This document shows positions 3,471 through 55,740 of a stretch of DNA of 64,000 nucleotides, piece after piece. Source of the DNA: Halobacteriales archaeon QS_6_64_34 (lineage in GTDB: Archaea > Halobacteriota > Halobacteria > Halobacteriales > Haloarculaceae); the NCBI GenBank assembly GCA_003020925.1, contig PXRT01000005.1, positions 68,052-132,051 of the forward strand, read 5' to 3'. The notes beneath the pieces are model-generated. The model made no database searches and was not told the origin of the DNA. It saw nothing but the letters and a program-made list of their open reading frames with translations. Every line of letters begins with the position of its first letter. The first letter of the stretch is position 1. A program made the translations under genes and the position numbers.

Positions 3471-5198
3471 CTACGCGTCCCCGTCAGCGGATGAGCGGTC
3501 ATCAACGCCGTCCACGTTTAGCCCGTATTCGGCCGCCCGTCGCCGCCAGAACTCTTCGTACTCTTCTTCGGTCTCCGAGACCGTCCGCTGGCCGCTTCTG
3601 ACCCTGTCGAGCTTGACGTTCAGCTCCTCGACGAGTTCGTCCCCGACGTCGCCCGAGACGACGCCATTGCGCGTCGCGTCCAGCGTCGCGCTCTTCTCGC
3701 GCTGGAGAATTTGCCGTTCGCCGGCCAGCACCCGCTCGTGTCGGAGCACCGGGTTCTCGCGCGTCAGCGTGGCGATGGCCTCGCTGAGCTGTGCCCGCTC
3801 CCGCTCGTACTCGGCGATGAAATCGTCGTAAACGTCCTGTGGAACGTCGCCGTTCCGATGGAGTTCCTCGGTCGCGTCCAGCGCGGCCTCGACGGCTCGT
3901 GCCCGTCCGAGGAGGAGTTCGAACAGCTCTTCGGCGTCGCTGCGCGTGACGATGCCGACCCGGTCAAGCAGGTTCGACATCGTCAGTCCCTGTACCACCA
4001 GCGAGAAGGCCGCGACGCCGAACACCATCGCGCGAAGCTGCGCACGCAGCGGCGTCGACGGCGGTAGGCCGAGCACCAGCGCGATGGAAATCGACGCGTG
4101 AAGCCCGCCCCAGACTATCACGTGCTGGTACTGTCGCGGGACGGTCGGCTCCGTCACGCGGTTCGCCACGGCCGCGAGGGGGTAGACGACGGCCGCCCTG
4201 GCGGCCAGCACGAGCGGGATGGCCAGAGCGATGAGCGCCGCGTTGGCGACGAGGTCGTCCAGCGGCGTCGTCACGCCTATCATCAGGAAGATGAACGTGT
4301 TGACGATGAACGCGGCCGTCTCCCAGGTGTTGAAGACGGCGACCTTCGTCTGCGGGCTCATCGCGTACTCGGCGCCGCGGTTGCCGATGAAGAGGCCGGC
4401 GGTGACGGTGGCGATGACCCCGGAGAGATGGATGCCGAGAACGTCCGCCGCGTAGTGTTCGGCCAGCAGGAACGCGCCGTATGCGAGGATGATGGTCAGG
4501 ATTATCTCCGTCATGTGGTCGTCGAGCGACGACATGACCGAGTACGCCAGCAACCCACCCACCAGCCCGACGACCAGCCCGCCCCCGGAAACCAGGACGA
4601 TGTCGAGGAGCAACGTTCCGAGACCACGCGCGGTGAACAGCGCCGCCGAGCCACCCGCTTCGGAGCCGCTCACGTAGCCCAGCAGCGCCGTGAACACGAC
4701 GACGCCCACGCCGTCGTTGATGAGGCTCTCGCCCTCGACGAGGGTCGCGAGCCGTTCGGGCGCGCCGAGTTCCTCGAATAAGGCTAGCACCGACACCGGG
4801 TCGGTCGGCAGTATCATCGAGGCGAACAGCAGCGCGAGCAGGAGGTCGAACCCCGGGAACAGGGACGCGCCAGCGAGGCCGAGCAGCGTGACCGACACCA
4901 GCAGGCCGACGACGGCGAGCAGCAGTATCGGCAGGCGGTCCCGGCGCAGGCGCTCCAGGTCGGTCGTCGCCGCGCCCTCGAACAGCAGTGGGGGCAGGAG
5001 CACGAGCAGGATCAAGTCGTGGGAGAGTTCGATTTCGATGGTGATGCCGACCACTGAGGCCGCGAAGCCGGCGATGAGCAGGGCGATCGTGTAGGGGAAA
5101 TCGCCGATTTTCGCGACGAAGATGCCGACGGCGGCCGCGATGATGAAGACGGCGAGCAGATCCGCGAGCAGTGCTACGGGGATGCCACTTTGTGCCAT
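3471..5198 (-). CDS. CPA1-family Na+/H+ (monovalent cation/proton) antiporter
   Basis: 575 aa. The first ~400 residues are about twelve hydrophobic segments. The transport signature of the CPA1/NhaP group is present: FASMILPTDPVSVLALFEELGAPERLATLVEGESLINDGVGVVVF, which holds the TDP of the discontinuous helix and the ND pair of the ion-binding site. The last ~150 residues are a soluble, charged, coiled-coil-like tail (AIATLTRENPVLRHERVLAGERQ). In a halophile it would exchange Na+ or K+ for H+ at the cytoplasmic membrane for pH and ion homeostasis. It stands alone, convergent with the small ORF/pseudogene region at 3.0-3.5 kb. Confidence 0.9.
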   Translation of the reverse strand: MAQSGIPVALLADLLAVFIIAAAVGIFVAKIGDFPYTIALLIAGFAASVVGITIEIELSHDLILLVLLPPLLFEGAATTDLERLRRDRLPILLLAVVGLLVSVTLLGLAGASLFPGFDLLLALLFASMILPTDPVSVLALFEELGAPERLATLVEGESLINDGVGVVVFTALLGYVSGSEAGGSAALFTARGLGTLLLDIVLVSGGGLVVGLVGGLLAYSVMSSLDDHMTEIILTIILAYGAFLLAEHYAADVLGIHLSGVIATVTAGLFIGNRGAEYAMSPQTKVAVFNTWETAAFIVNTFIFLMIGVTTPLDDLVANAALIALAIPLVLAARAAVVYPLAAVANRVTEPTVPRQYQHVIVWGGLHASISIALVLGLPPSTPLRAQLRAMVFGVAAFSLVVQGLTMSNLLDRVGIVTRSDAEELFELLLGRARAVEAALDATEELHRNGDVPQDVYDDFIAEYERERAQLSEAIATLTRENPVLRHERVLAGERQILQREKSATLDATRNGVVSGDVGDELVEELNVKLDRVRSGQRTVSETEEEYEEFWRRRAAEYGLNVDGVDDRSSADGDA

Positions 5199-5242: not shown

Positions 5243-5734
5243 TCACGATTCTTCCCAGTAGTTCAGTTCGGCGTGCCGGTCGAGATACGTCGATAGCGAC
5301 CGCTCCTCGCTATCGCCGCCCGGTGGGGCACCGGCGTAGAGCCCGACCATGTCCCGGTCCGGATAGACGGTGATGTCGGGCTCCTCCATGGTCGAGTGCA
5401 TCAGCAGGCGGAGGCCCTCGTCGCCGGCCTCGATGTCGTGGGCGCTCTCCTCGCCGGCCGGCAGGGCGACGTAGTCGCCGGCCGAGAGGGGGTGTTCGGT
5501 CTCGTCGGACCCCAGAAAGAGGGTCCCACTCCCGTCGAGGACGAAAATCGACTCCTCGTTGCCCTCGTGGTAGTGCCGGACCCACAGCCGCTTGCCCGGT
5601 GGTACCTCATAGAGGCTCGTTCCCAACGCCTCGCCGCCGGCGGCCGCGCCCAGTTGCTTGCGCTTGAACTGTCGGTCGCCGTGGTCGTGTTCGGTCCACT
5701 CCAGGTCGGCAACGTTCACGGGGCCGTCGCTCAT
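5243..5734 (-). CDS. Cupin domain protein, copy A
   Basis: 163 aa single-domain cupin. Motif 1 is readable as RHYHEGNEESIFVLDGSGTLFLG (about residues 48-70) and motif 2 follows PLSAGDYVALPAGEESAHD. It is clearly paralogous to the cupin at 8066-8593: both begin with an acidic leader then L-W-E-DHG-R-FKRKQLGAAAGGE-LGTSLYE and end with L-(N/D)YW(D/E)E. The substrate is unknown; cupins of this type are often metal-binding sugar or small-molecule enzymes or sensors. Immediately upstream on the same strand sits a copy of the 3' end of the DHH gene, so the pair repeats the arrangement at 8.07-10.8 kb. Confidence 0.85.
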   Translation of the reverse strand: MSDGPVNVADLEWTEHDHGDRQFKRKQLGAAAGGEALGTSLYEVPPGKRLWVRHYHEGNEESIFVLDGSGTLFLGSDETEHPLSAGDYVALPAGEESAHDIEAGDEGLRLLMHSTMEEPDITVYPDRDMVGLYAGAPPGGDSEERSLSTYLDRHAELNYWEES

Positions 5735-5776
5735 ACCGAGTCGACAGCGACCGGAGAAAAAAACCCTGTGTCGTTA

Positions 5777-5990
5777 CAGGTCCTCGGCCAGCCGTTCGAG
5801 CGTGGCGTCGAGCACCGCGTCACGCTCGCCGGCCAGATACCGGAGGGAGCCGTCTCGGACGCTGCGGGTCGTGACGCCGCCCTCGGGCGCGGCCTCGTCA
5901 ACGTCGGCGACGAGTTCGTGGAGGTCCACGTCGGCGTCGGTGCGGACGTACAGTGTGTCCGTGTCGTCACCGTAGCCGGTGGCTGGGCGG
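5777..5990 (-). pseudogene. 3'-end fragment of a DHH/RecJ-like gene (duplicate of the 8633-10789 gene)
   Basis: Reading leftwards, the frame gives DTDTLYVRTDADVDLHELVA and then the rest of the same C-terminus to DAVLDATLERLAEDL and a TAA stop at 5777. It matches the last ~65 residues of the intact DHH gene; the final ~10 residues differ (intact copy: DAVLDAVIDVVADEVA). The nucleotide match is 163 bp (5804-5966) with three mismatches, all synonymous in this frame. Homology stops at 5967, next to unrelated sequence. There is no start codon or N-terminal domain, so this is a broken leftover of a duplicated gene. Confidence 0.85.
5804..5966. repeat. 163-bp direct repeat, copy 1 (partner 8666-8828)
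   Basis: Aligned base by base against 8666-8828, the two copies differ at three positions only, all transitions. Same orientation, 2,862 bp apart. They lie in the C-terminal coding part of the intact DHH gene and of its fragment. Confidence 0.92.
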
Positions 5991-6091
5991 GGTTCGTTCA
6001 GGACTGGTCTAGAAGAGTCGGCGACAACCCGGCGCTGTTTTTCAATGAAGTCTGGGGATGGGATATCCCAGAGTTCATCGCGAAGCGAGCT

Positions 6092-6610
6092 ATGCTGGCT
6101 GCTCCTCTAGGAATGCAACCGTTCATTGATTACATGAGCGTCGTTCCGAACACCTACTCGTTCATCGAATTCATCGTGCTCGCAGACGGTCGGCGGTACG
6201 CCAGAGTCTGGGACGCTAGTATCTATCCGTCACTCGCAACGTACGTCGATAAAAGATTACAGGAACTGGAGAAGATGCCATACAACACGGACGAACGGTT
6301 CAACGCAAATGTCTTCGCGTTCATGCTGGAGGCATCAGTTGGTGTAACTCCGTATCACACCCCACTCGACTTCTACTCCAGACTGATCAAAGATGACGAT
6401 CTCAGAGAAGGGATGCTGCAGGAACCGATACAGGATCTGATCGACCTCCTGCCAGTTGGCTGGGGGGTCAACGAGTTGATGTCCGATGTACCCCGGGCGA
6501 CTGTCGGCTTAGATAGTTATGACGGCGTGCCGCTCGACGAACAGGATGCTCCCTTCGGACTGGCTGAGGGCCTTTTATTCCCATTGGCAAATAAGGTAGA
6601 GTCGGAGTAG
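6092..6610 (+). CDS. Unrecognised protein, probably 5'-truncated
   Basis: From the first in-frame ATG the product is 172 aa (MLAAPLGMQPFIDYMSVVPN...). Protein-like sequence in the same frame continues upstream to about 6000 (NPALFFNEVWGWDIPEFIAKRAM) with no ATG or GTG, and then runs into the antisense of the DHH fragment at the 5967 breakpoint. This suggests that the real N-terminus was lost in the rearrangement. Composition is less GC-rich than the neighbours, with more AT-ending codons, which points to foreign origin. No motif, signal peptide or membrane segment is recognised. The ORF-track start at 5396 is an artefact of the open antisense frame. Confidence 0.5.
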   Translation: MLAAPLGMQPFIDYMSVVPNTYSFIEFIVLADGRRYARVWDASIYPSLATYVDKRLQELEKMPYNTDERFNANVFAFMLEASVGVTPYHTPLDFYSRLIKDDDLREGMLQEPIQDLIDLLPVGWGVNELMSDVPRATVGLDSYDGVPLDEQDAPFGLAEGLLFPLANKVESE

Positions 6611-6666
6611 TACCCGACCAAACCCCCTCGGTTGCTCGGCGGACTGCTTAAACCTCTACGCTCCCC

Positions 6667-7749
6667 ATGCCCCCCATATCACTGAACCGAAGATCATTCA
6701 TTTCGGCCCTCTCAGTCTCGACTCTCTCGACAGCGGGTTGTGTGGAAATCGATACCGACCCTGAGCGAACGTGGACACCAGACCGCGACCGCCTCCGATG
6801 GCGTCGCTGGGTAGACGGACGTGCCGCTTCGAGTCCTGCTCTGCACGATGGGACTCTCTATATCGGGAGCTTCGACGGGGCCCTCCGAGCACTCGATCCG
6901 GGTGATGGATCCGTTCGCTGGACGTACGAGACAAATGGCGAGATATGGTCGAGTCCTGCTGTTACCGATACTGCGGTCTACGTCGGTAGCAAGGATTCGA
7001 ATCTACACTGTCTCGGGCACGACGGGTCGGAAAAGTGGCAATTCGAAACGGAAGGAAGCATCTGGGGAGGTCGCCCCGCCGTGCATAGGAACTCCGTGTA
7101 CGTCGGAAGTGAAGACGGAGTCGTCTACGCGATCGACGCCGGAACTGGGACCGAACAGTGGGGCTATCAAACCGGTGATGGGGTATTCGGACCCCCGAAT
7201 GTAACTGGTCAGACAGTATTCGCCGGAAACAGGGGTGGCTCACTCATGGCACTCGATTCGTCGACGGGCGACCGACGGTGGGAGTTCACAGTCGATGATT
7301 CGTTCGACGCTGGCCTCGCGATGGCAGGAGACATAGTGTTAGCAGGGTGCAAGAACGAGACCCTCTACGCACTGGATGCCGAGAACGGCCGAAATCGTTG
7401 GTCCTACGGGACTAGCGAAGGGATCAACGTTAGTCCCGCGATTGCTGGTGGAACTGCCTACTTCGGCGATTGGGGCGGTAACTTCTACGCCATCGATGTG
7501 GATTCCGGTAACGAACGGTGGACGAGTGACGCTCCGATCGGGACGATCAACTGTGACCCGGTGGTCGTCGACGGGCTGGTCTACACGGGGGACCTCCGGG
7601 GGTACCTGCGCGCCTTCGATACCGAGACAGGGGAAGAGCAGTGGTCGTACCGAACTGACAACGCGGTCCACTCGACACCGGTCCTCACCGATGACACCAT
7701 CTACTTCGGGAGCAACGACGGATACGTTTACGCCGTCGAACGACCGTAA
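6667..7749 (+). CDS. Tat-exported lipoprotein with PQQ-like beta-propeller repeats
   Basis: 360 aa. The N-terminus has a twin-arginine signal (LNRRSFISALSVSTLSTAGC): RRSFI, a short hydrophobic stretch and a lipobox LSTAGC, the usual haloarchaeal route to a membrane-anchored surface lipoprotein. The rest is a series of about seven WD-like/PQQ-like blades, each with a strand of the form xVYVGSxDGxLxALDxxxGxxxWxYxT. This is the BamB/PQQ-dependent dehydrogenase-like propeller fold. The catalytic residues of true quinoprotein dehydrogenases are not evident, so a scaffold or binding role is more likely. It lies between the two cupin/DHH duplications, and like the gene before it is somewhat less GC-rich than average. 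Confidence 0.85.
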   Translation: MPPISLNRRSFISALSVSTLSTAGCVEIDTDPERTWTPDRDRLRWRRWVDGRAASSPALHDGTLYIGSFDGALRALDPGDGSVRWTYETNGEIWSSPAVTDTAVYVGSKDSNLHCLGHDGSEKWQFETEGSIWGGRPAVHRNSVYVGSEDGVVYAIDAGTGTEQWGYQTGDGVFGPPNVTGQTVFAGNRGGSLMALDSSTGDRRWEFTVDDSFDAGLAMAGDIVLAGCKNETLYALDAENGRNRWSYGTSEGINVSPAIAGGTAYFGDWGGNFYAIDVDSGNERWTSDAPIGTINCDPVVVDGLVYTGDLRGYLRAFDTETGEEQWSYRTDNAVHSTPVLTDDTIYFGSNDGYVYAVERP

Positions 7750-7848
7750 GCAGTCGGCTAGCGCTCTCACAGGCGTTCTACGGTTCGAGCGACGGGGACC
7801 GGTTCGGCGGCAGCGGTTTCTATCCGTGAGTCCTCATCCCCCGTATGC

Positions 7849-8062
7849 ATGCGCGTCACCGATTTCGACATTGAACGAGTACAGCGACGAGCGGTTCACC
7901 GCCCGCGAGGCGTTCCGGAGCGACCACATGAAGGTCGTCTGGGGGTACTTCGAGCCGGGGCAGTTCGTCCCGGTCTACGCGCCCAGCAGCGACATCGCCA
8001 GCCACGTCCGCGATGGGCTCCGCCGCGGCGTCTTCGATCCAAAGGCGGAGGTGGGAGACTGA
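7849..8062 (+). pseudogene. Frameshifted cupin-like fragment
   Basis: The frame from the ATG at 7849 reads MRVTDFDIE and then becomes nonsense. The neighbouring frame continues NEYSDERFTAREAFRSDHMKVVWGYFEPGQFVPVYAPSSDIA, which has the F-x-PGQF-x-P-x-x-AP-x-SD core of a small haloarchaeal cupin-like family. One frameshift near 7875 is needed. After HVRDG the sequence no longer resembles a cupin and ends at a TGA (8062), so the 3' part is lost too. It is convergent with cupin copy B and 3 bp away. Confidence 0.6.
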
Positions 8063-8065
8063 CCG

Positions 8066-8593
8066 CTACTCGTCCCAGTAGTCGACTTCGGCGTCCAGGT
8101 CGACGGTCTTCGAGATGAACCGGTCGTCGTAGTTACCGGGCGCGCCGCCAGCGAACAGCATCGCCGCGTCGCGGTCGACCAGCACGGACATGTCCGGCTC
8201 GTTCATCGTCGAGACAACCAGGAAGCGCGCGGTCGTCTCGCCTCGCGTCTCCACCTCGTGGGCGTGGTCCGGCGCGCTCGGCAGGGCGACGTAGTCGCCC
8301 GGTTCGAGGACGTGCTCTGTCTCGCCCGACTCCGAATCGTCACTTCCCAACCAGAGCGTCAACTCGCCGCCGAGGACGTAGATGGCCTCCTCGTTGCCGG
8401 CGTGGTAGTGGCGGGGCCAGGTCCGCTTGCCGGGGTCGAGTTCGTAGAGACTGGTTCCAAGCTCCTCGCCGCCCGCCGCCGCGCCGAGTTGTTTGCGGCG
8501 GAACGCTCGCTCCCCGTGGTCGTACTCCTCCCAGTCGAGGTCGGATTCGGTGACGATCGGGTCGGTGTCGTCGATTGGGTCGCTGTCGCTCAC
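8066..8593 (-). CDS. Cupin domain protein, copy B
   Basis: 175 aa from a GTG at 8593 (VSDSDPIDD...), chosen because the paralogue at 5243-5734 begins MSDGPVNV at the equivalent place; the ORF-track start 27 bp upstream has no counterpart. Cupin motif 1 is RHYHAGNEEAIYVLGGELTLWLG, motif 2 is LEPGDYVALPSAPDHAHEV. Relative to copy A it has a small insertion (DDSESGE) after the LGSD turn. It lies 39 bp downstream of the DHH gene on the same strand, so the two may be co-transcribed. The substrate is unknown. Confidence 0.85.
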   Translation of the reverse strand: MSDSDPIDDTDPIVTESDLDWEEYDHGERAFRRKQLGAAAGGEELGTSLYELDPGKRTWPRHYHAGNEEAIYVLGGELTLWLGSDDSESGETEHVLEPGDYVALPSAPDHAHEVETRGETTARFLVVSTMNEPDMSVLVDRDAAMLFAGGAPGNYDDRFISKTVDLDAEVDYWDE

Positions 8594-8632
8594 GGGCGAA
8601 GCGACGAATGAGAGCGGCAAAAAGGTCCGTCG

Positions 8633-10789
8633 TCAGGCTACTTCGTCGGCGACGACGTCGATGACGGCGTCGAGCACCGCGTCGCGCTCGCCGGCCAGAT
8701 ACCGGAGGGAGCCGTCTCGGACGCTGCGGGTCGTGACGCCGCCCTCGGGCGCGGCCTCGTCGACGTCGGCGACGAGTTCGTGGAGGTCCACGTCGGCGTC
8801 GGTGCGGACGTACAGCGTGTCCGTGTCGATACCGACGACGGCGTCGACCTCGTCGCGGACCGAGCGGTAGAGTTCGTCGAGCAGAAGCGTCTCCGGGGGG
8901 AACTCGTACTGGTGGGAGAAGGCGTCCGTGTCCAGGACGGCCACGTCGGCGTCACCGACGGTCTGGTACTCCAGGTTGGCCACGGCGGTGGCCACCTCGT
9001 CGTCGACCTTCTCGCGGAACTGCTCGGCGACGTGGCCGGCCAGCCCGCCGACGTCGTTCTCGTCGTCGCCGAAGACGAGGTCGGTGATGAGTTCACGCTT
9101 GTCCTCGTAGGACTGGTAGTGTGCTTCGAGCGCGACGGCCTCGCGAAGCTGCGTGACTGCGTCGCCGTCGTAGCCGGCCTCGCCCGCGAGGTCGACGTAC
9201 GCCTCGGGGGCGTCCTCCCAGAAGCTCACGGCGGGGAGATGTCGGAGGTCCGCTCGCACGTCGGCGTTGACGTGGGCGGCGACGTTGGCCGACAGCGTCG
9301 TCGCAGTGGTGTCGGGTGCGTCGGCCAGGCTCGGCGAGACGACCGCGTCGACCGCGTCGGTGACGGTGCCGTCGACCTCGATGTCGTCGACGACGACGGT
9401 CAGCGCGCCGTAGACGTTCAGCAGGTCGAAGCCGTCGAGGCTCTCGCGGGTGCCACCGGCCGCGACGAAGACGAACAGGGGGAGCGCTTCGTCGTGGCGC
9501 TCCTTGTTGTCCAGCATCTGTGAGGTATCTTTGGTGGCGTCGTCCATGTCGTAGACGCCGCCCTCCAGGGGCCGGCGGTCGAAGTAGTGGTACTGGGCGT
9601 CGGCCCGCCGGTGCTGGTCGGTGACCAGCGGGAGCGTCGCACGCTCCAGTGCGCTGCCGGCGAGGTAGCCGTCGGCAGTGTTTGCGTGACGGACGATGAC
9701 CGGCCGCTCGGTGAGGACCGCCTTGCGAATCTCGGTGGCCACCTCGATTAGGTCCTCCGAGAGGGCTGCGATAGTGTCGTCGTCGGCCAGCGGTTCCACG
9801 GCGTCGGGCCTGGCCTCGTCGTCAAGGGCGTCGGCCAGCCGCTGTTTCACCGCCTGGCTTTCCTCGTCGTCGAGGACCCTGAGTTCCTGGGTCTCGACCT
9901 GCAACTCGCCCCGTCGTTCGCGCACCTCACCGTCGAGTCGGGCGAAATCGCCTTCCTCGACTTCGGGATAGGCACGGACGCCGGCTTCCACGAACGCGGC
10001 GCAGTCGACGGTGCCGCTGGCGTCCTGGAGTTCGAAGACCGTCGGGCCGGAGGTCTGGCGGATGCCGACGACCTCGCCCTCGAGTCGGACGTCGTCGCCG
10101 ACGTAGTCCGAGAGGCTGTCGACCGGAACAGTCTCGGGTTCCGCTTTGGCCTCGACTGTGGCCACACCGCCGCCCGTCGAGTCCGTTCCAGGCGAGTCTT
10201 CGGCAACCTGTTCGGCGTCGCTGTCCGAACCGACCGAGCTACCGGTGTTCGGTTCGGAGCGAGCGTCTGTGGTCGCTGCGTCCGACTCGGCCACGTCGTC
10301 TTCGGTGTCGTCCTCGTCGGCGGTGTCGTCTCCCGCGTCGTCGGCCGTCTCGGGGGACTGGGCGGACGCCCCGTCCCCGTCAGCGTTTCCCGATTCGTCT
10401 TCCTCGTCAATCAGCGTCGCGTGGCCAACGTCGGGGTCGTCGGCGAGCACGCCGCGGAACTCGCGTTCGGCCTGGCGGATGGACCAGCCGAGGTCGACGT
10501 TGCCGTTGTCGCGGACGTTCTTGACCTGGACGTACACCTCGTCGCCCGGCTCCCAGTCCAGCGAGTCGAGTCGCTGGTCCAGTTCGCTGCGGTGGAGCAG
10601 GCCGGTAACGCTGTCGCCGATGTCGACGAAGACGCCGAACTCGGCGAAGCCGTCCACGCTGCCGCGGTAGTATCGACCAACGTTGAGCTGGTCGGCGCTA
10701 TTCCCTCGGAACTCGAACAACGCGTCCTCCTCGTGGAGGTCACAGATGTGTCCGTCGACGGATGTGCCGCAAATGATACACGAACCCAT
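8633..10789 (-). CDS. Zinc finger/S1/OB-fold/DHH-superfamily protein, RecJ- or Cdc45-like
   Basis: 718 aa from ATG 10789 (MGSCIICGTS...), supported by a TATA element 27 nt upstream. Order of parts: Cys/His zinc finger (CIICGTSVDGHICDLH, residues 2-18), S1 RNA-binding domain (VGRYYRGSVDGFAEFGVFVDIGDSVTGLLHRSEL, about 37-100), an Asp/Glu/Ser-rich linker of about 90 residues, an OB-fold (DVRLEGEVVGIRQTSGPTVFELQDASGTV, about 220-300), then a DHH-type domain to the end. The DHH catalytic motifs are degenerate: HANTADGY where D-x-D-x-DG is expected and VVVDDIE in place of DHH. It is thus probably a nucleic-acid-binding protein with weak or no nuclease activity, possibly working with the replication or RNA-processing machinery. 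Its last ~55 codons are duplicated at 5804-5966. Confidence 0.82.
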   Translation of the reverse strand: MGSCIICGTSVDGHICDLHEEDALFEFRGNSADQLNVGRYYRGSVDGFAEFGVFVDIGDSVTGLLHRSELDQRLDSLDWEPGDEVYVQVKNVRDNGNVDLGWSIRQAEREFRGVLADDPDVGHATLIDEEDESGNADGDGASAQSPETADDAGDDTADEDDTEDDVAESDAATTDARSEPNTGSSVGSDSDAEQVAEDSPGTDSTGGGVATVEAKAEPETVPVDSLSDYVGDDVRLEGEVVGIRQTSGPTVFELQDASGTVDCAAFVEAGVRAYPEVEEGDFARLDGEVRERRGELQVETQELRVLDDEESQAVKQRLADALDDEARPDAVEPLADDDTIAALSEDLIEVATEIRKAVLTERPVIVRHANTADGYLAGSALERATLPLVTDQHRRADAQYHYFDRRPLEGGVYDMDDATKDTSQMLDNKERHDEALPLFVFVAAGGTRESLDGFDLLNVYGALTVVVDDIEVDGTVTDAVDAVVSPSLADAPDTTATTLSANVAAHVNADVRADLRHLPAVSFWEDAPEAYVDLAGEAGYDGDAVTQLREAVALEAHYQSYEDKRELITDLVFGDDENDVGGLAGHVAEQFREKVDDEVATAVANLEYQTVGDADVAVLDTDAFSHQYEFPPETLLLDELYRSVRDEVDAVVGIDTDTLYVRTDADVDLHELVADVDEAAPEGGVTTRSVRDGSLRYLAGERDAVLDAVIDVVADEVA
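8666..8828. repeat. 163-bp direct repeat, copy 2 (partner 5804-5966)
   Basis: Copy lying inside the intact DHH gene near its 3' end. Identical to 5804-5966 except at three third-codon positions. Recombination between the copies would remove cupin B, the beta-propeller lipoprotein and the truncated gene. Confidence 0.92.
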
Positions 10790-10811
10790 TGCCCGATGCA
10801 AGCAGGTGGGG

Positions 10812-18635: not shown

Positions 18636-20807
<2,172 letters not shown>

Positions 20808-54270: not shown

Positions 54271-55740
54271 CATCCTCCCCGCGCTGAAGCGCGAGGATTC
54301 CCACGGAACCGCACCGCTGGGTTGGGATATTGTGGTTCACGATACGATCTATTCTTGTGGGCGTACTCTGCCAGTGGATTTGTCGAACAGACGTACCGAT
54401 GGCTGTGCCAAGCAGCCGTTACTCCTATCCTCTACAGGATTCGGAGTTACCGTCACTCGCATATTCTCTGCCGCGTTCAGGTCGCCATTAGCGACCAGTC
54501 CACACTCATCACAGACGTACAGGCCACGTTCCACACGGTTTGCGTCGGCTTCTGTGCCACATTCACAGCACGTTTTCGACGTTTTCAATTCCGCTTCATC
54601 AACACGTTCCACGTCGATTCCACGGTCTTCAGCCTTGTACTCGATGTGGTTCAGAAGGGTTTTAAACGCCCAGTTATGCAGCCGTTTGTTGCCGTGTCGC
54701 CCCCAGTCTTGATCGTCATGGATCTGCTTGGGATGGCCGATTGCTATCGTTCCAACATTATGGGCAGCACACTGTTCGACAATATCGTTCGACAAGGCGT
54801 GTAGGAAGTGGTCTTGTCGCCGTGATTTTTTCTGTCGTGCCCACTGTGCGTGTTGGCTTGGGCCGTTTTCACCCGCTGTGTCGTATTCTTCTTGGCGGAA
54901 GTAGTGGGCGTCTTCTTTCAGGGCGTTGCCCGGATACAGCAGTGTCTCGTCACCGATAGAAACAGCCGCCGTATTGCAGATTCCAAGGTCAACACCTGCG
55001 GTGTTCTCGCCTGGCGTTTCGGGGGTCTCAACCCGCATTTTACAGACGAAATGCAGTTCCCACTTGTCACCAGTCCAGACAGCACGCACAGTCTGGACGC
55101 TCTCAACATCCGCGAGCGTCTGGTCGGCGTCTGTTTGGAGCGTGTATTCACACAGCATGTAGTCAGCGGCGTACCGTGAGGCCTTCATATTCGTCCCTTT
55201 CGAGAGCCGAACACGGTTGTACTGAGTGTCGAGTTTGAAGCCTTGATTTTTCCACGTCACCGTTGACCGTGGATGTTGTTCGCCGTGTTTGCGGTAGCCG
55301 GGCGGGTTCGCGTCTGGATCGTCTTGTTCGTACCACGACACAAATGCTTCCCCGAGTTCCTGAAGAACTCGTTGGCTGGATTGTGAGTGCAAATCCGCGT
55401 AGCGGTCGTGGCTTTTGAGATACGAACACAGTTCGTCGGCGTCTGGAATATGGTCGATAGCGTCCCAGACACGTGAAATCGTCCATCGTCCGACGTTCCA
55501 CAGTTTCGAGGCAGCAAAGCCATGCGAATCGAGGCCATCACACACTTGCGAGTGGTTGGTGAGACTCGCTTTGAGTGTCCGAGTGACGACCTGATTCGAC
55601 ATATGTAAGCATAGTATTTTCTCTTACATAATGGTTGCGGATAGCTGTTGTCTGTGGAATATCCAGTCGTGGCTCAGAGGGGAGATTGATACCCAGTTGT
55701 CGGCTTCATCCCCGCGCTAAAGCACGAGTCTTTCGCCTCG
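54271..55740. mobile_element. IS200/IS605-group element carrying only tnpB
   Basis: One tnpB gene (54349-55602) without tnpA. Both ends carry a similar subterminal motif in the same orientation: right end CATCCTCCCCGCGCTGAAGCGCGAGG (54271-54296) and left end CTTCATCCCCGCGCTAAAGCACGAGTC (55704-55730). Each can fold into a hairpin. Non-autonomous unless a TnpA acts in trans. Exact ends cannot be fixed without an empty site. Confidence 0.75.
54349..55602 (-). CDS. tnpB: TnpB-type RNA-guided nuclease (IS1341 family)
   Basis: 417 aa. N-terminal WED/REC-like part, then RuvC pieces: RuvC-I AGVDLGICNTAAVSIGDE, RuvC-III VANGDLNAAENM, and a zinc ribbon CCECGTEADANRVERGLYVCDEC between them. The RuvC-II motif, normally x-x-x-E-D/N-L, reads TIAIGHPKQIHDD here, lacking the Glu at the expected position (see finding). 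The transcript would read through the right end at 54348-54271, where an omega-RNA scaffold is expected. Starts just downstream of an AT-rich upstream region with ATTATGTAAGAG. Confidence 0.9.
   Translation of the reverse strand: MSNQVVTRTLKASLTNHSQVCDGLDSHGFAASKLWNVGRWTISRVWDAIDHIPDADELCSYLKSHDRYADLHSQSSQRVLQELGEAFVSWYEQDDPDANPPGYRKHGEQHPRSTVTWKNQGFKLDTQYNRVRLSKGTNMKASRYAADYMLCEYTLQTDADQTLADVESVQTVRAVWTGDKWELHFVCKMRVETPETPGENTAGVDLGICNTAAVSIGDETLLYPGNALKEDAHYFRQEEYDTAGENGPSQHAQWARQKKSRRQDHFLHALSNDIVEQCAAHNVGTIAIGHPKQIHDDQDWGRHGNKRLHNWAFKTLLNHIEYKAEDRGIDVERVDEAELKTSKTCCECGTEADANRVERGLYVCDECGLVANGDLNAAENMRVTVTPNPVEDRSNGCLAQPSVRLFDKSTGRVRPQE

Follow-up and report, generated by a model that had tools for sequence, protein, structure and literature searches.

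On the minus strand of the window (the whole 64-kb stretch of DNA analyzed here, part of a 2.2 Mb draft genome that is 80% complete and distributed over 17 contigs), a DHH nuclease gene (10801-8633), cupin B (8620-8066), a DHH 3′ fragment (5979-5774), and cupin A (5734-5243) follow one another. This gene order bears out the claim of an earlier note on this DNA that a DHH 3′ end followed by a cupin gene occurs twice in one direction. Between cupin B and the DHH fragment, the plus strand carries a lipoprotein gene (6667-7749) and a truncated frame ending at 6610. The features of the locus are as follows.

5243-5734, minus strand: cupin A (163 aa), the native gene downstream of DHH; 62 to 88% amino acid identity to the DHH neighbor in 29 sister species
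5774-5966, minus strand: displaced native DHH 3′ end (repeat copy 5804-5966 plus the tail TLERLAEDL and stop); the tail matches sister-species orthologs
5957-5966, no strand: junction J3, GTCCGTGTCG, readable both as the end of the DHH repeat and as the VRV codons with which the truncated-gene homology opens
5957-6610, plus strand: 5′-truncated gene, a C-terminal piece resembling a 756-codon frame of another genome (G006:C61)
5967-7778, no strand: low-GC DNA of third-source type, from J2 (∼7778) to J3 (∼5957-5966), set apart by GC, GC3, and lack of a full-length match
6667-7749, plus strand: beta-propeller (PQQ/BamB-like) protein (PF13360, 9.1e-64) with an N-terminal Tat-lipoprotein-like signal, read by eye
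7779-8665, no strand: Halosimplex-like donor tract, 92.6% identity to PXSD01000181.1 over 7779-8669
7845-8062, plus strand: decayed cupin-like gene running convergently to cupin B, with a disrupted frame and an internal deletion, as aligned to QS_9_67_15
8066-8620, minus strand: cupin B (184 aa, Cupin_2, Pfam PF07883), foreign ortholog of cupin A
8633-8665, minus strand: Halosimplex-type end of DHH, made up of the foreign last 10 codons (VIDVVADEVA) and stop; a close match to QS_9_67_15 and genome G298
8666-8674, no strand: junction J1, native DHH joined to the foreign tail; GGCGTCGAG in the native sequence, where the donor relative reads GGTGTCGAG
8666-8828, minus strand: 163-bp repeat, the copy in the full-length DHH gene; native type, 98% identical to 5804-5966
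8666-10801, minus strand: native part of the DHH/RecJ-like nuclease gene (S1 and OB domains), mostly 80 to 100% DNA identity to sister species

Base-by-base comparison of 5804-5966 with 8666-8828 (offset 2862) confirmed the statement of the earlier note that the two stretches differ at three sites only, all synonymous; the sites, 5822/8684, 5900/8762, and 5954/8816, are all third codon positions. This match lies far above chance, and the longer units, aligned over 777 bases, are 70.8% identical, which makes them the strongest self-match of the window. Elsewhere in the window, two segments of the same orientation (19322-19795 and 20135-20608) form a second direct repeat with 68% identity across 482 bp. 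Comparison with sister species and Halosimplex assigned both 163-bp copies to the native type and neither to the donor type; against the donor relative QS_9_67_15, 8666-8828 reached 52 to 62% identity per 50-bp bin. At all three differing sites, nearly all sister species have the base found in the copy of the full-length gene, and the displaced copy carries the derived state. A test of whether all three would be synonymous by chance, which draws on three differences only, returned a P value of ∼0.02 for all changes and of 0.09 for GC-to-AT transitions only.

The identity of the two DHH ends stops short of the gene end, and the fragment is therefore not a copy of the present one: the last 10 codons are wholly different, reading VIDVVADEVA and stop in the full-length gene and TLERLAEDL and stop in the fragment. 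The former tail, which is in frame with native DHH, has close matches in QS_9_67_15 and G298, whereas the sister species carry the latter. The fragment and cupin A thus represent the old gene end with its old neighbor, and it is the full-length gene that bears the newcomer's tail. Outside a variable linker, the native part of the gene shares mostly 80 to 100% DNA identity with sister species and ∼60 to 83% with Halosimplex. The closest NCBIfam model of the encoded protein is HAN nuclease (NF053577), at 369.7 bits and below the cut-off of 840. In genome G007 (L009, 1261-1530), an unrelated stretch containing a long inverted repeat (CCCCTTTCAGCCCCACCC...) takes the place of the last DHH codons and may be what is left of an insertion sequence.

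The native state of the locus was read from 29 related genomes of the same genus, one of the checks that the earlier note had put forward. In these genomes, DHH is followed by an ortholog of cupin A across a gap of 40 to 59 bp in most and usually of ∼45 bp, and none of the 29 has a second DHH end or the insert of the window. The comparison upheld a single DHH-cupin A locus and lent no support to a duplication of the cupin. Consistently, cupin A grouped with the closest sister species in a maximum likelihood (ML) tree (support 100/99); it shares 56% amino acid identity with cupin B. On the far side of cupin A, the NhaP-type antiporter gene (3471-5198) is 98 to 100% identical at the DNA level to G007, with flanking genes at 82 to 92%, and probably marks a second, separate recent recombination tract beside the insert.

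Cupin B has a different affiliation. Its product shares 95% amino acid identity with that of the MAG Halobacteriales archaeon QS_9_67_15 and 75 to 82% with those of Halosimplex species, and in the ML tree it falls with QS_9_67_15 (99/93) inside Halosimplex (100/100). Its best relatives within the family come from two genomes of another genus, where the gene stands after DHH and is followed by a convergent small cupin gene and elp3. The same order, DHH-cupin B-decayed cupin-elp3, is found in QS_9_67_15 and Halosimplex. The donor tract comprises the DHH tail, intergenic DNA, cupin B, and the decayed cupin with its upstream region, and stops just before the donor's elp3. The decayed cupin is disrupted in both the window and QS_9_67_15, which have its internal deletion in common, while genome G234 carries an intact 130-aa gene at this position. 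Identity to the QS_9_67_15 contig (PXSD01000181.1) is 92.6% over 7779-8669 versus 70.6% over 8680-9281, and elp3 is only 76% identical between the two genomes, so the high identity of the tract does not reflect general relatedness. Given the two placements in the tree and the identity of the donor tract, cupins A and B are two lineages' versions of the same positional gene, i.e., xenologs, and not the products of one duplication. The Halosimplex-type cupin lies at variable distances from its neighbors (L109, L110, L120, L121), 16 to 1053 bp from DHH and, in G298, 3.4 kb from elp3, which indicates a neighborhood that often gains and loses genes. The paper texts yielded no mention of QS_9_67_15, and its link to an Atacama salt-crust study with a driest site called Qs (PMC5532433) is one of name only.

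These assignments recast the earlier claim that the cupin and the DHH 3′ end were duplicated together as one segment. The DHH part stands as a recent within-lineage copy and cupin B comes from a Halosimplex-like lineage; the truly duplicated part is the 163 bp of native DHH only. Nor does the contrast between near-identical DHH ends and divergent cupins call for gene conversion or strong constraint on the DHH part, the two explanations offered in the earlier note, because native DHH was duplicated whereas the cupins are orthologs from different genera. Gene conversion may still have acted after integration.

The remainder of the insert, 5967-7778, resembles neither flank. GC content falls here to 52 to 62% versus 65 to 70% around it, and GC3 to 0.64 to 0.65 versus 0.86 to 0.89, a drop confined to this interval. 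No full-length match to 5970-7780 was found in the genus genomes, QS_9_67_15, or four Halosimplex genomes. By composition and matches, this DNA is third-source in character, of neither donor nor genus type. The best relative of the beta-propeller protein within the family shares 47% amino acid identity. The truncated frame aligns at 42 to 44% amino acid identity to the C-terminal end of the 756-codon frame in G006:C61, which directly precedes a beta-propeller gene, and on contig C17 of the window's own genome a related propeller gene stands together with a small part of this companion frame. Pfam and NCBIfam gave no match for the truncated gene, and haloarchaeal plasmids only weak ones (28 to 49%). 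Among the recognized genes of the insert there is no integrase or transposase frame, and no Rfam family was detected within it; far from the insert, the minus strand of the window matches sot0042 (sense overlapping transcript RNA) at 54276-54452.

The donor lineage and the native state are identified, and the breakpoints are placed to within ∼10 bases, J2 (∼7778) less precisely than J1 and J3. At J1, the match to QS_9_67_15 falls off from 92% identity (bin 8628-8677) to 62% (bin 8678-8727), and the junction occupies the same place in the DHH gene of the host and of the donor lineage. Its anchor is short, 6 to 9 bp within a patch of moderate conservation. At J3, DHH adjoins an unrelated gene. 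The protein alignment of the truncated gene with its G006 counterpart runs on through the VRV codons (5957-5965), overlapping the repeat end, and these codons, in an alignment of 42% identity, suggest ∼10 bp of shared sequence at J3.

Altogether, the native DHH nuclease gene very probably received a composite foreign segment in its 3′ end, with 163 bp of the target duplicated in the process. The incoming DNA would have consisted of a Halosimplex-like DHH gene end, cupin B, and the decayed cupin, linked to third-source DNA bringing the beta-propeller lipoprotein and the truncated gene. One end of this DNA would have been linked to native DHH through a few bases common to both at the gene end (J1), and its other end would have rejoined native DHH 163 bp upstream of the J1 point (J3). 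Such an event would duplicate 163 bp of native DHH, provide the gene with a foreign in-frame tail of 10 residues, and displace the old tail and cupin A downstream. Short shared words are present at both J1 and J3, and we infer one illegitimate-recombination event via junction microhomology rather than several steps. Hybrid illegitimate events are known to use 3- to 10-bp microhomology (PMC3240628), recombination between genera occurs in haloarchaea (PMC4500145), and Haloferax is reported to carry out microhomology-mediated end joining (PMC7521656). The shortness of the J1 anchor, the derivation of the J3 microhomology from a 42%-identity protein alignment, the duplication of recipient DNA where classical events would delete it, and the draft state of the genome count against this account, and J2 implies that the segment itself is composite, possibly with at least one earlier step. 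The earlier suggestion that recombination between the repeats would cleanly remove the segment and leave an intact DHH end holds in sequence terms: a homologous exchange between the two 163-bp copies would take out 2862 bp, the decayed cupin-like gene at ∼7845-8062 included, and yield DHH-cupin A as in the sister species.

The main rival is another route to the same foreign insert, and its probability overlaps with that of the explanation just given. A hybrid allele (native DHH, foreign tail, and cupin B) would first have arisen in another strain of the species; its DNA, circularized by end joining, would then have integrated into a chromosome of the DHH-cupin A type through one crossover in the 163-bp stretch. 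Target duplications of 109 to 950 bp with one illegitimate junction have arisen in this way in E. coli, where an assay traced them to single crossovers of shortened circles (PMC3240628), and three synonymous differences out of three would fit strain polymorphism under selection (chance, 2 to 9% for an unconstrained copy). This route needs an extra event and an unseen intermediate strain, and three differences are too few to decide; we regard it as possible, at perhaps one chance in a few. Less likely, and in our judgment improbable, is the integration by single crossover of a donor circle whose DHH end was of donor type, with subsequent gene conversion of both copies to the native type. Intermolecular gene conversion is efficient in polyploid haloarchaea (PMC8223754, PMC11276520), and the earlier note had suspected conversion too. 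Nevertheless, neither copy retains a donor-type base pattern, and conversion would have to span the repeat exactly from end to end.

An assembly artifact joining two co-occurring haloarchaea deserves mention, as the genome is a metagenome-like draft and a 163-bp repeat can mislead short-read assemblers. We consider it very unlikely: J1 and J3 lie in shared words of ∼6 to 12 bp, less than a k-mer misjoin would require; insert and sampled donor are 7% apart; the new tail keeps the reading frame; and the other resolution of the repeat would be an intact locus plus a 2.9-kb circle without a recognizable replication gene. A duplication of the DHH 3′ end and cupin within the lineage, after which the cupins diverged and DHH was conserved or converted, would account for the common order and direction and for the homology of the cupins, and yet has hardly any standing, since cupin B lies within Halosimplex and its intergenic region, DHH tail, and decayed neighbor are of Halosimplex type too; the ML tree does not trace both cupins to one gene copy within the genus. 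Equally implausible is site-specific integration of a small mobile element carrying a replacement 3′ end, in the manner of prophage e14 in icd of E. coli, which would match the replaced and displaced gene ends, the direct repeat of target sequence, and the unrelated insertion near the same gene end in G007, but for which the recognized genes offer no integrase, transposase, or att-like core, the contents being chromosomal neighbors of DHH in the donor lineage; the 29 sister loci showed no independent insertion that shares these ends and this site.

The insertion of a composite foreign segment, then, is an ordinary kind of gene transfer by a general process already known, and constitutes a well-resolved case of an archaeon gaining a second version of a gene, from another genus, beside the first. 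To judge from this case, haloarchaeal chromosomes are also shaped by illegitimate joining where the anchor is only weakly conserved, and a housekeeping gene can undergo the tail displacement familiar from toxin loci of bacteria. That the DHH 3′ end and the DHH-cupin gap form a recurrent landing site in Haloarculaceae, with inter-genus cassette exchange, target duplication, and tail-swapping outside toxin systems, is hinted at by the unrelated insertion at the same gene end in G007 and by the 16- to 1053-bp gap in Halosimplex-type genomes, and is at present a highly speculative idea.

Among known systems, prophage e14, on inserting into icd of E. coli, supplies this gene with a substitute 3′ end and displaces the old one. 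The DHH locus has the same outcome; its insert differs in being free of integrase and phage genes and in containing ordinary chromosomal neighbors. Rhs C-terminal displacement and the effector-immunity arrays of the Vibrio cholerae T6SS (PMC5361080) likewise place a new 3′ end and partner gene ahead of a retained old 3′ fragment and partner. There, the pair is toxin and immunity protein, whereas here it is a housekeeping-type DHH nuclease (S1, OB) and a Cupin_2 protein, only 10 residues are exchanged, and the arrangement is seen in one genome. In homology-facilitated illegitimate recombination, described in Streptococcus, Acinetobacter, Pseudomonas, and E. coli (the last in PMC3240628), one end is joined in homologous sequence, as at J1, the other at short microhomology, usually of 3 to 10 bp, and the foreign insert is small, a few kilobases; small target duplications were recorded in E. 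coli. Recipient DNA is lost in classical events, whereas here 163 bp were duplicated and both cupin A and the native tail were kept, in an archaeon, with a diverged short anchor and a composite insert. Finally, inter-genus homologous recombination in haloarchaea (PMC4500145) also transfers DNA between Haloarculaceae genera at orthologous loci, but by replacement of the native allele, whereas at the DHH locus the foreign version was added beside it.
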